Part shown: one piece after another, positions 28,362 to 31,792 of the stretch
How positions within the stretch are numbered: position 1 is the stretch's first letter
Layout: each line of letters opens with the position of its first letter
From: a virus
IMG/VR virus record: IMGVR_UViG_3300007541_000103
Coordinates: 1 to 32,181 of that record
Reading direction: 5' to 3' (one strand)
DNA length: 32,181 nucleotides
Program-made: the position numbers and the translations under genes
Notes under the pieces: model-generated
The model's input: the letters and a program-made list of their open reading frames with translations, nothing else
Database searches by the model: none
What the model was told of the DNA's origin: nothing

Positions 28362-28790
28362 ATGAAAAATTATGATTCTATAGATAAGTCATTAAATGTC
28401 TCAAGTAATATTGTACATAGTGATGGAGAAAATAATCCTAGTGTTGAAATTGTAAATCCTAGTTTACAAGAGTCTAATGACATTAAAAAAGACTATGAAT
28501 ATACTAGAGCAAATTTATATTCATTGATAGAAAAGGGACAAGAGGCCATTGATGGAATCATGGAACTTGCTATTGATGGGGGAAGTCCAAGAGCATATGA
28601 AGTCGCTGGTCAATTGATAAAAAATGTGGCAGATACTACTGATAAATTAATTGATTTGCAAAAAAAATTAAAGGATGTTGCAGAAGAATCTCCAAAAACA
28701 ACTAATGTTACCAATAACGCACTATTCGTTGGATCTACTGCAGAATTGTCCAAATTACTAAAGCAAGGTTTTCTAAATAATAAAGAGTAA
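28362..28790 (+). CDS. 16: Terminase small subunit gp16
   Basis: This encodes 142 residues (T4 gp16 is about 164). gp16 regulates DNA recognition and cutting by the large terminase gp17 during head filling. The central helical pair is visible: YEYTRANLYSLIEKGQEAID, MELAIDGGSPRAYEV, then a coiled-coil-like VADTTDKLIDLQKKLK helix. The end (NNALFVGSTAELSKLLKQ) matches the C-terminal motif I recall for the family. The large terminase gene does not follow directly in this window. Confidence 0.88.
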   Translation: MKNYDSIDKSLNVSSNIVHSDGENNPSVEIVNPSLQESNDIKKDYEYTRANLYSLIEKGQEAIDGIMELAIDGGSPRAYEVAGQLIKNVADTTDKLIDLQKKLKDVAEESPKTTNVTNNALFVGSTAELSKLLKQGFLNNKE

Positions 28791-28802: not shown

Positions 28803-31475
28803 ATGGGTTGGTCAGAAAAGTATAAAAAATCTATTGATTGCGACAATCCTAAAGGGTTTTCTCAGAGAGCTCACTGCCAAGGACGTAAAAAGAACGTGAA
28901 AGAAGGTACAGATGGAATCGGTGCGAAGTCCAAAAATTATAATTTAAAAAAATGGTTTGATGATGGTGGTTGGGTTCAAACAGGTGGCAAATATGATGGA
29001 AAACCATGTGCTAAACAACCAGGTCAAACTACAAAACCATTTTGTCGAGATCCTGATGATCGCAAAAATATGAGTAAAAAGGAAAGAAATAAAAGATCTG
29101 CTAAAAAACGTAGAGAAGATCCAAATCCCAACAGAGAAGGAAAAGCAAAGATGGTTACAACTGAAAGTAGCAATCCATTAATGACTGATATGCCAAAACC
29201 ACAAGCAGCATATGAGAAACTTGCAACAGATTTGGCAACAGATTTGAAGAAACAAGCAACTCTTAGAGATGCAAAAAATGCTCGTATCAAACAACAAGCA
29301 TCTCAAAGTAAAATGTCAGAAGAAAAAGATGCATGTTATCGCAAGGTAAAAAGTAGATATAAAATTTGGCCAAGTGCTTATGCCTCTGGAGCACTCGTAA
29401 AGTGTAGGAAAGTAGGCGCAGACAATTGGGGAAATAAAAAAGAAGACTATAACTTTTCAAACTGGAGAGATGATTTTAAGGCAACTGAAATTGAAACTAT
29501 AGATTTAATAAAACCAGATCCAATTAAAATTATTGAAAAGAAGGAAGATCCATGTTGGGATGGTTATAAACAAGAAGGTATGAAAAAGAAAGGTAAAAAA
29601 ATGGTTCCAAATTGTGTTCCAGAAGAAGTAGAAGTTCAGAGATATTGCCCAAAATGTAAAAAAGAAGAAACTCGTAGTGAGTGTAAGTTTGGACCAAAGT
29701 ACTGGGATTTATATTCTACACCAGTTTCTTTAAGTTCAGATGCTTATGATCCTAATGATCCCCATCCAGCAAATGAAGAAAAAGATCATGAGTACTCAAT
29801 GGCACGTTCAGAAATTTCTACAATTATTAATGCAGCAAAAAGACTGAAAAAGAAAATGGGAAAAGGTGAGGGTAATATTGAAGCATGGGTTCAATCAAAA
29901 ATTACTAAAGCAGCAGATTATCTTGACAGTGCTGCGGATTATGTTGATAGTGGTGAGATGAAAAATGAGAGTATTTACAATGAGCAAAAATTATCAAAAA
30001 CTATCACTGCAAAAGGTGAAGGTGGATCTCCATATGAACCATATAATAAACCAAAAGGTCCTTCTCAACCAACTCAACCACCAGGAGGTTTTGATAAATT
30101 TAGAGAAAAATATGGAATTCCCAAAAAACCTTCTCTTCAAATTGCACACTATATCCAAGACAATGATCTCGTAGATGAGCAAGTAAAACCTATTGAAGGA
30201 CCTTATGATAAATTTGATAGATTGGTAAATGCTTCCCGCATACCATCATCTACTAAAAGTAAAGTAGAAATATTAAAGAAAGCTGCAAGAATTTATCCAA
30301 AAGTTACAAAAATTGAAGATTCTTATGAATCAAGAGATGATTTAATTGAATATTCAAATTGGAGAGAAGATTTTAAATTACTAGATTTAGAGAATGAAGT
30401 TCTTGATGAAAACCTAGTTAGATTAGGTAGTAAGTTAGCATCTAAAGTAATTAAAGCAGTAGGAAAAACGCAAGTTAGAAAATCTCTTCCGCCATTAAAA
30501 TTAAAAAATCTTTCTCCATCAAGAAGAAAGGAGGTTATGCATCAGGCACAAAAAAGAGTTTTATCTTACAAACCAGGTCAAACGGACAAAGTTGCAAATA
30601 AAAAACATGCTGCATCAGTTTTAAATACAAAGTATGGGGCAAGACAAGATATTTTGTCTAAGGGAGGAACTCCTAAAGAAGCTGCTTCGCAAAGCAGATC
30701 TTCGTTAGGACCTGGAGATAATACTGCAAAAGATTTTAATATTAAAAGAAGTGGTAGAGGTAGAAAAGGTTTTCATGGACCAGAAACCGACAGGGGTAAA
30801 GGAAATAAAGCAGCAAGAAGAGCAGGAGAACCAGTATTAGACACTGGAGATAAAAAACTTCATTATCGCCCAACAAGAACTCAAAGTATTGAGAGATCAA
30901 GGCAAAATAGACAGAGAAGATCTGTAGAGAGAAGATTAAATAATTTATTGAATAAAAAAAATACTAAAGATAATACACAAATGAAATCTATAGAGAAAAG
31001 ATTGAATAATTTGCTAGATACAAATTTTGAACAATTTTCTAATTGGAGATCAGACTTTGGATTAAATGAGCAAAGTGCTTATGGGCCACAAAAAGGTGGT
31101 TGGAAAATAGGTCAACCAGTTGGTCAACACTTGGCACAAAAAAGCACATCTCAAAAAAGCACATCTCAAAAAATTAAAGATGCTGGTGCTAAATATGGAA
31201 AAAAGGTATTTGAAGAAGATTGGCAAAAAGTAAATCGTCAAGACAAGACTGATGGTTTAAGTCAAGCAGCAGTTGATGCTTATCGCCGTGAGAATCCAGG
31301 TTCAAAACTACAAACTGCGGTAACTGAAAAGAAACCAAAAGGAAAAAGAGCAAAGCGTCGTGCTAACTTTTGCCGACGTATGAAAGGGATGAAGTCTGAA
31401 TTGACTTCAGCAAAAACTGCAAGAGATCCCGATTCAAGAATTAATAAAGCATTACGCCGTTGGAGGTGCAACTAA
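28803..31475 (+). CDS. Large basic mosaic protein with repeated FSNWR motifs, probable internal virion/prohead protein
   Basis: This encodes 890 residues rich in Lys and Arg. Recognisable blocks, in order, are GWSEKYKKSIDCDNPKGFSQ at the start; KNYNLKKWFDDGGWVQTGGK; ACYRKVKSRYKIWPSAYASG near 177; CWDGYKQEGMKKKGKKMVPN near 245; a three-Cys CPKCKKEE...EC segment (282-294); and a helical HEYSMARSE...KGEGNIEAWVQSKITKAAD region near 329-388. The C-terminal block (about 826-890) has RRENPGSKLQTAV, FCRRMKGMK and TARDPDSRINKALRRWRC. I recall similar blocks, in varying order, in marine phage proteins of unknown function. FSNWR-type motifs occur at 218, 517 and 745. The composition suggests DNA or scaffold contact inside the head; no enzyme motif is seen. 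Confidence 0.75.
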   Translation: MGWSEKYKKSIDCDNPKGFSQRAHCQGRKKNVKEGTDGIGAKSKNYNLKKWFDDGGWVQTGGKYDGKPCAKQPGQTTKPFCRDPDDRKNMSKKERNKRSAKKRREDPNPNREGKAKMVTTESSNPLMTDMPKPQAAYEKLATDLATDLKKQATLRDAKNARIKQQASQSKMSEEKDACYRKVKSRYKIWPSAYASGALVKCRKVGADNWGNKKEDYNFSNWRDDFKATEIETIDLIKPDPIKIIEKKEDPCWDGYKQEGMKKKGKKMVPNCVPEEVEVQRYCPKCKKEETRSECKFGPKYWDLYSTPVSLSSDAYDPNDPHPANEEKDHEYSMARSEISTIINAAKRLKKKMGKGEGNIEAWVQSKITKAADYLDSAADYVDSGEMKNESIYNEQKLSKTITAKGEGGSPYEPYNKPKGPSQPTQPPGGFDKFREKYGIPKKPSLQIAHYIQDNDLVDEQVKPIEGPYDKFDRLVNASRIPSSTKSKVEILKKAARIYPKVTKIEDSYESRDDLIEYSNWREDFKLLDLENEVLDENLVRLGSKLASKVIKAVGKTQVRKSLPPLKLKNLSPSRRKEVMHQAQKRVLSYKPGQTDKVANKKHAASVLNTKYGARQDILSKGGTPKEAASQSRSSLGPGDNTAKDFNIKRSGRGRKGFHGPETDRGKGNKAARRAGEPVLDTGDKKLHYRPTRTQSIERSRQNRQRRSVERRLNNLLNKKNTKDNTQMKSIEKRLNNLLDTNFEQFSNWRSDFGLNEQSAYGPQKGGWKIGQPVGQHLAQKSTSQKSTSQKIKDAGAKYGKKVFEEDWQKVNRQDKTDGLSQAAVDAYRRENPGSKLQTAVTEKKPKGKRAKRRANFCRRMKGMKSELTSAKTARDPDSRINKALRRWRCN
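30921..31020 (+). repeat. Duplicated S-[VI]-E-x-R-L-N-N-L-L unit
   Basis: Residues 707-716 and 729-738 of the basic protein carry the same SVERRLNNLL / SIEKRLNNLL helix, 22 residues (66 bases) apart. The second copy lies six residues before the third FSNWR motif. The DNA copies differ mainly at synonymous positions. Confidence 0.75.
31137..31166 (+). repeat. Tandem 15-bp repeat in the basic protein gene
   Basis: CAAAAAAGCACATCT occurs twice in tandem, followed by a partial third copy (CAAAAAA). It encodes QKSTSQKSTSQK. It is an in-frame, recent duplication that could vary in copy number. Confidence 0.85.
31462..31466 (+). promoter_or_regulatory. Shine-Dalgarno GGAGG that fixes the start at 31475
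   Basis: GGAGG ends eight bases before the ATG at 31475 and lies in the last codons of the basic protein. A longer reading from a TTG at 31460 would start on top of this site, so the ATG at 31475 is the better start. Confidence 0.8.
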
Positions 31476-31792
31476 TGAAAAATCAACTATCAGAAAACAT
31501 TACCATTCAAGGAGATTTCAATGGAACTCTTAATGTAGGATCTCCACAACCAGAACTGCAAAAAGTTGGTGAAAGTTACACCGCCGATGTAATGTGGAGA
31601 GGAAATCTATACAGAATGGATTTAACTTCCATATCCGCACCAACAAGAGAATCTCTTGGTGAGGATATTCAGAGTGAATATCCAGGTGCAGTTGTTCATA
31701 ACATTTATCCAGCGAATGTGTCATCAAATAGTACTCTTAGAATAACGGGCGTAAAAAGATATCAACCAGAAAGATTAACTTGGGGTGAATAA
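31475..31792 (+). CDS. Protein of unknown function, 105 residues
   Basis: Starting at the ATG that overlaps the previous stop (TAATG), it encodes MKNQLSENITIQGDFNGTLN onward. Further segments are ESYTADVMWRGNLYRMDLTS, SEYPGAVVHNIYP and a final ITGVKRYQPERLTWGE. I recall short proteins of this kind in cyanophage structural blocks but know no function. The fold appears mixed beta/alpha with no membrane segment. It overlaps both neighbours by one base, so it is translationally coupled to the basic protein upstream and the structural protein downstream. Confidence 0.78.
   Translation: MKNQLSENITIQGDFNGTLNVGSPQPELQKVGESYTADVMWRGNLYRMDLTSISAPTRESLGEDIQSEYPGAVVHNIYPANVSSNSTLRITGVKRYQPERLTWGE

Follow-up and report, generated by a model that had tools for sequence, protein, structure and literature searches.

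Identity and setting of the gene

The place and role of many cyanophage virion proteins are not known, and the locus described here raises the question of whether a long basic protein encoded next to the small terminase gene is cargo of the phage head, cut into pieces as the head matures. The window, meaning the whole 32,181-nucleotide stretch analyzed (IMG/VR record IMGVR_UViG_3300007541_000103), comes from a T4-like cyanophage-type genome and contains baseplate wedge genes, gp13, gp14, gp15, and gp16; the 32-kb fragment does not include gp21. The gene and its neighbors are as follows (a slash within a sequence marks the putative cut after Glu).

28362 to 28790, plus strand: gp16, small terminase, given for context (phrog_445; E value, 1.5e-52)
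28803 to 31475, plus strand: 890-aa mosaic basic protein of the T4-GC0119 family, between gp16 and the phrog_1742 gene (phrog_727 and phrog_3477 matches; synteny)
31239 to 31463, plus strand: DUF6321 (PF19846), a C-terminal basic module at residues 813 to 887 (Pfam E value, 2.5e-12, above the cut-off)
31475 to 31792, plus strand: phrog_1742 gene, probable start ATG 31475 (TAATG overlap), N terminus MKNQLSE/N

The gene lies directly 3' of gp16, its relatives are syntenic, and the window ends before gp17. Its product matches phrog_727 (E value, 5.4e-85) and phrog_3477 (E value, 3e-37) and is a member of the T4-GC0119 cyanophage structural proteins (phrog_727/phrog_3477, DUF6321), with which it has the gp16-gp17 interval and modules in common. 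The T4-GC0119 label is found at the syntenic position in S-SM2 and S-P4, annotated in the latter as a structural protein, and S-SRM01 carries a homologue of the window gene at the same position. A total of 467 phage records, cyanophages in nearly every case, contain relatives. ATG 31475, rather than TTG 31460, is most likely the start of the overlapping phrog_1742 gene, whose MKNQLSE/N is a shortened form of the MKSFQQFLSE/S leader of its relatives.

No enzymatic domain was recognized in the protein, for which Pfam returned DUF6321 only and a PDB sequence search nothing useful, and AlphaFold predictions of two regions were of low confidence (pLDDT, 57 and 58; pTM, 0.25 and 0.36). A literature search with the motif string described below yielded a single unrelated paper and one with DUF6321 no paper; function or processing of GC0119 or phrog_727 is not described in the literature searched.

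Homologues have been found in virions. ORF29 of S-SCSM1, a homologue of the window protein, is labeled a virion protein and is listed in the virion proteome of that phage (PMC9602691), and S-SCSM1 ORF92, a member of the second family described below (FSNWRNDLREVM), is likewise labeled a virion protein. ORF137 of S-CREM2, a positional and DUF6321 homologue, was represented by 4 peptides with 4.1% coverage (PMC10665884), a low coverage that is compatible with processing.

Motif copies and L/I-x-E sites in the window protein

The original prediction, made from the sequence alone, was that of a polyprotein-like internal head protein with three [FY]SNWRxDF motifs, LDE and LNE sites after the second and third of them, and a strong basic charge. 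The motifs were confirmed at residues 218 to 225, 517 to 524, and 745 to 752, and a search of all six frames found none elsewhere in the window; the two sites read VLDE/N (E536) and GLNE/Q (E756), and the protein has a pI of 9.8 and a net charge of +74. The motifs, sites, and modules upstream of DUF6321 are listed in order.

29325 to 29450, plus strand: KDACYxKVK..WPSAYASGALVKCRKVGA..NWG module, near-invariant in 12 aligned homologues
29454 to 29477, plus strand: FSNWRDDF, motif 1, class A, followed by KATEIETIDLIKPDP (motif search)
29529 to 29537, plus strand: IIE site (E245), 20 residues after motif 1, preceding the CWDGY module
29553 to 29618, plus strand: CWDGY..PNCV module (sequence, recurrence in relatives)
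29640 to 29708, plus strand: RYCPKCKKEETRSEC..YWD module (sequence; recurs in relatives)
30342 to 30350, plus strand: LIE site (E516), immediately before motif 2
30351 to 30374, plus strand: YSNWREDF, motif 2 (motif search)
30402 to 30410, plus strand: LDE site (E536), behind motif 2
31035 to 31058, plus strand: FSNWRSDF, motif 3 (motif search)
31062 to 31070, plus strand: LNE site (E756), behind motif 3; directly joined to DUF6321 in relatives (GLSE/DWQ)

The complete set of [LI]xE sites in the 890 residues consists of E245, E516, E536, and E756, each beside a motif; LIE/YSNWR (E516) and IIE/KKEDPCWDGY (E245) are additions to those predicted originally, and no LxE directly follows motif 1. 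All four sites fall between positions -4 and +25 of a motif, a zone that takes up 12.5% of the chain (probability by chance, about 2e-4, with the zone chosen post hoc). Cuts at E516 and E536 would release an acidic 20-aa peptide (net charge, -5) containing motif 2, and the other predicted pieces are residues 1 to 245 (+22), 246 to 516 (+2), 537 to 756 (+33), and 757 to 890 (+22). The Cys pairs of the RYCPKCKKEETRSEC..YWD module possibly bind metal. At 31071 to 31220, about 49 residues of the window protein separate GLNE from the EEDWQ of DUF6321 and have no counterpart in relatives, which join the two directly.

The motif in related phages

IMG/VR was scanned with a DNA pattern for [FY]SNWRx[DE][FL], of which LxE was not a part, and at least 120 stretches were retrieved. 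The motif occurs in at least 120 related ORFs, and nearly all of the matches listed are long modular ORFs of two families, the first being GC0119 and the second adjoining a virion cytidylyltransferase gene. Across 11 cyanophage genomes, complete or nearly so, a related pattern was found 0 to 2 times in each; seven of the eight matches lie in one or the other family and the eighth, in S-SCSM2R at 152749 (L193), lies in an ORF that ends in DUF6321. The original prediction had proposed a search for the motif and L-x-E sites in other proteins, and wherever this could be checked the motif was restricted to cargo families of the virion type.

When the pattern was run with CGN codons for Arg or AGY codons for Ser, most matches were chance ones in unrelated frames, which represents the background level. 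Among the matches listed, the motif serines are almost all encoded by TCN, while AGY accounts for 25% of the serine codons in the same ORFs. The retrieval pattern itself favors TCN, and the codon argument therefore leans on the separate AGY-Ser scan, in which no genuine motif copy was found; together, the TCN bias and the empty AGY scan suggest common descent of the cassette from one DNA segment.

The tie between the motif and L/I-x-E was examined in 68 dereplicated occurrences with divergent downstream sequence among the matches listed (24 of class A and 44 others). In 39 of the 44 non-class-A occurrences, [LI]xE stood 0 to 3 residues from the motif end, compared with 6.0 ± 2.0 in shuffled sequences (maximum of 12 in 500 shuffles). 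In these same listed occurrences, neither [LI]xD (6 versus 4.0 ± 1.9 shuffled) nor [LI]..E was enriched over shuffles, and [LI]x[KR] was found 0 times versus 7.7. The tie was present in each family separately (43/56 and 12/13 of the matches listed), and control anchors in the same listed proteins had [LI]xE at a frequency of about 10% (15/153 for other W and 3/27 for other R-x-[DE]-[FLM]). The second residue after the motif-final Leu was Glu in 29 of the listed matches and Asp in 1; so rare a replacement of Glu by Asp is in keeping with a protease rather than with acidity alone. The Trp-to-Glu distance peaks at 6 residues (30/74 of the matches listed), and given this tie the motif is better written S[NDS]WRx[DE]L-x-E. 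Class A, a second form of the motif (FSNWRDDFKATEYEF...; FSNWRDDFKATEYEFIDIIKPEP), includes motif 1 and had an adjacent [LI]xE in 0 of 24 listed occurrences. A displaced LxE at W+16 to W+32 in class A (21/33 of the matches listed versus 6.3) was not counted, because ExL and LxxE were likewise enriched.

Among the matches listed, LxE also stands at the starts of modules beyond the motif and is rare within most modules. The last 8 residues before CWxGY contained [LI]xE in 38 of 57 dereplicated relatives listed (6.2 ± 2.4 shuffled), as did 13 of 39 before DACY modules (2.8 ± 1.5) and 6 of 14 before YCPKC modules (1.1 ± 1.0). Three module types in these matches contained no internal LxE, against expectations of 12.0, 9.0, and 2.4, counts that are not independent since the module bodies are related sequences. 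Within one DUF6321 subtype, LNE was seen 12 times among the matches listed versus 6.1 expected, and thus not every LxE need be cut. Overall, the L/I-x-E sites occupy conserved, non-random places, as expected of a gp21 substrate.

Comparison with T4 targeting sequences and other systems

The T4 protease gp21 cuts after L/I-x-E, and in the targeting sequence of IPIII residues 4 and 7 serve targeting and residues 8 and 10 processing, which is blocked by Asp at position 10 (PMC9026906). T4 ipII and ipIII start with MKTYQEFIAE/A, and the Tyr-to-Glu spacing of the ipIII sequence is the same as the commonest Trp-to-Glu spacing of the cassette, 6. IPI, IPII, IPIII, and Alt, which carry gp21-cut N-terminal targeting sequences, are likewise basic virion proteins with L/I-x-E and an aromatic residue six before Glu, and their genes adjoin others with the same type of leader, as is the case here. 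Family 2 proteins start with MRTWKEVIAE/A, MKTWKEIITE, or NDISRVYLEQIAE, the neighboring cytidylyltransferases with MKSFFQFLSE/A, and phrog_1742 proteins with MKSFQQFLSE/S. In gp23 of S-SM2 and S-SRM01 (MIAE/QPTN and FLSE/ASPT), by visual comparison, LxE stands where the T4 cut lies.

The window protein itself has no N-terminal capsid targeting sequence, since it starts with MGWSEKYKKS and has no [LI]xE before residue 243; the lack of this defining feature accounts for its not having been filed as a T4 internal protein. In contrast to the T4 internal proteins, to which no sequence homology was detected, the signal here is internal and present in up to three copies, with modules before or after it. 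At P1-3, the T4 targeting sequence has Phe and the cyanophage cassette Asp or Glu, and the cassette has a Trp-Arg core. Despite these differences, the window protein probably works like the T4 internal proteins.

Several LxE sites per chain are also found in the T4 core proteins gp22 and gp67, which gp21 cuts into several fragments, but in the relatives the acidic scaffold protein gp22 has a gene of its own, whereas the window protein is basic and modular. The inner-body proteins of phiKZ-type phages are DNA-associated, abundantly processed head cargo (PMC9026906), but they are cut at S/A-x-E, and both this cleavage motif and the phage group differ from those of the window protein. Polyvalent proteins (Iyer et al. 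2017, cited in PMC7824862), as summarized in the citing article, are multi-module proteins thought to be injected with the DNA; the window protein is likewise multi-module, but compared with that summary its modules are much smaller and no catalytic domains were recognized in them.

Proposed processing and alternative explanations

We consider it fairly probable that the window protein is a polyprotein carried as cargo inside the head of a T4-like cyanophage and cut by gp21 at the cassette sites. Basic, often Cys-bearing modules would be joined by acidic linkers with gp21-type L/I-x-E sites, and SNWRx[DE]L-x-E would be a recurring linker cassette whose layout (aromatic residue at P1-6, Leu or Ile at P1-2, Glu at P1) resembles a T4 targeting sequence. 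During prohead maturation, gp21 would cut these linker sites and yield basic modules of about 15 to 31 kDa, which would remain with the DNA once it is packaged and might leave the head along with it at ejection. Cutting, motif-driven head targeting, and DNA association of the window protein are what we infer. Much of the originally predicted polyprotein has held up: the protein is basic, modular, and virion associated, gp21-type LxE sites go with both the motif and the starts of modules, the motif has the spacing of a T4 targeting sequence, and neighbors have N-terminal targeting sequences, while the lack of an adjacent LxE at motif 1 counts against it. A polyprotein of the gp21 type, with putative cleavage, is thus well supported by sequence, and FSNWR is a plausible candidate for a head-targeting tag.

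A broader reading, which we put forward tentatively, is that SNWRx[DE]L-x-E may be an internal, repeatable targeting-plus-cleavage cassette, disseminated as a module of DNA through the cargo genes of T4-like cyanophages and building head-packaged polyproteins that the prohead protease would cut into separate basic peptides. Should the cassette be a marker of head cargo and of cleavage sites, the head interior would become the assigned location of a marine virus protein family that is large, abundant, and unexplained, exact peptide ends would be predicted that can be searched for in existing mass spectrometry data, and a T4 targeting signal would be workable inside a chain and reusable.

Alternatively, SNWRx[DE]LxE could be a binding motif for the scaffold core, the portal, or gp21 that recruits the protein into the prohead, with LxE as an uncut amphipathic-helix contact. 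Conservation extends beyond LxE, class A keeps FSNWR without an adjacent LxE, and in T4 the residues for targeting can be separated from those for processing (PMC9026906), all of which suits binding; we nevertheless regard this as unlikely, since among the matches listed LxE is fixed before motif-free modules such as CWxGY, the spacing behind the motif varies between W+6 and W+9, and Asp is no substitute for Glu. It is more improbable still that the motif is merely a spreading linker segment, multiplied by recombination in a fast-evolving basic protein, with a function limited to joining modules. The high mosaicism of the family and the TCN-coded serines, which point to descent from one DNA segment, agree with such spread, but the motif core and LxE remain fixed while the flanks diverge below 50 to 60% identity, and the motif is kept by two gene families at separate loci.

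Virion association, mosaic small modules, and cargo-type neighbors, such as the virion cytidylyltransferase beside family 2, would also be expected of an ejected multi-domain anti-host factor, comparable to polyvalent proteins, in which processing is incidental. The outcome of the Pfam and PDB searches, without any enzymatic domain, argues against this explanation, to which we give little credence; it is, however, compatible with the cargo polyprotein explanation, and the two are not mutually exclusive.

Additional observations

The virion cytidylyltransferases (NMNAT-like) of three cyanophage stretches (L053, 6848 to 8029; L176, 38819 to 40048; L180, 3020 to 4246) start with MKSFxxFLxEA, likely a T4-type capsid targeting sequence. 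A different protein of 676 aa, encoded beside psbA (L152, 2 to 2032) and without a phrog or phage match, has the motif as its C-terminal tail and ends in NEQFSNWRDELTDA before the stop codon. The family 2 ORF stops immediately after the motif, at eleven consecutive T (GFSNWRDEMGGNFFF before the stop codon), in L083 (minus strand) and in L188 (DSL-LC02, OR032571, near 117149, also minus strand); in both phages coding continues in the +1 frame after this T tract, which is probably a conserved transcriptional-slippage or frameshift site.
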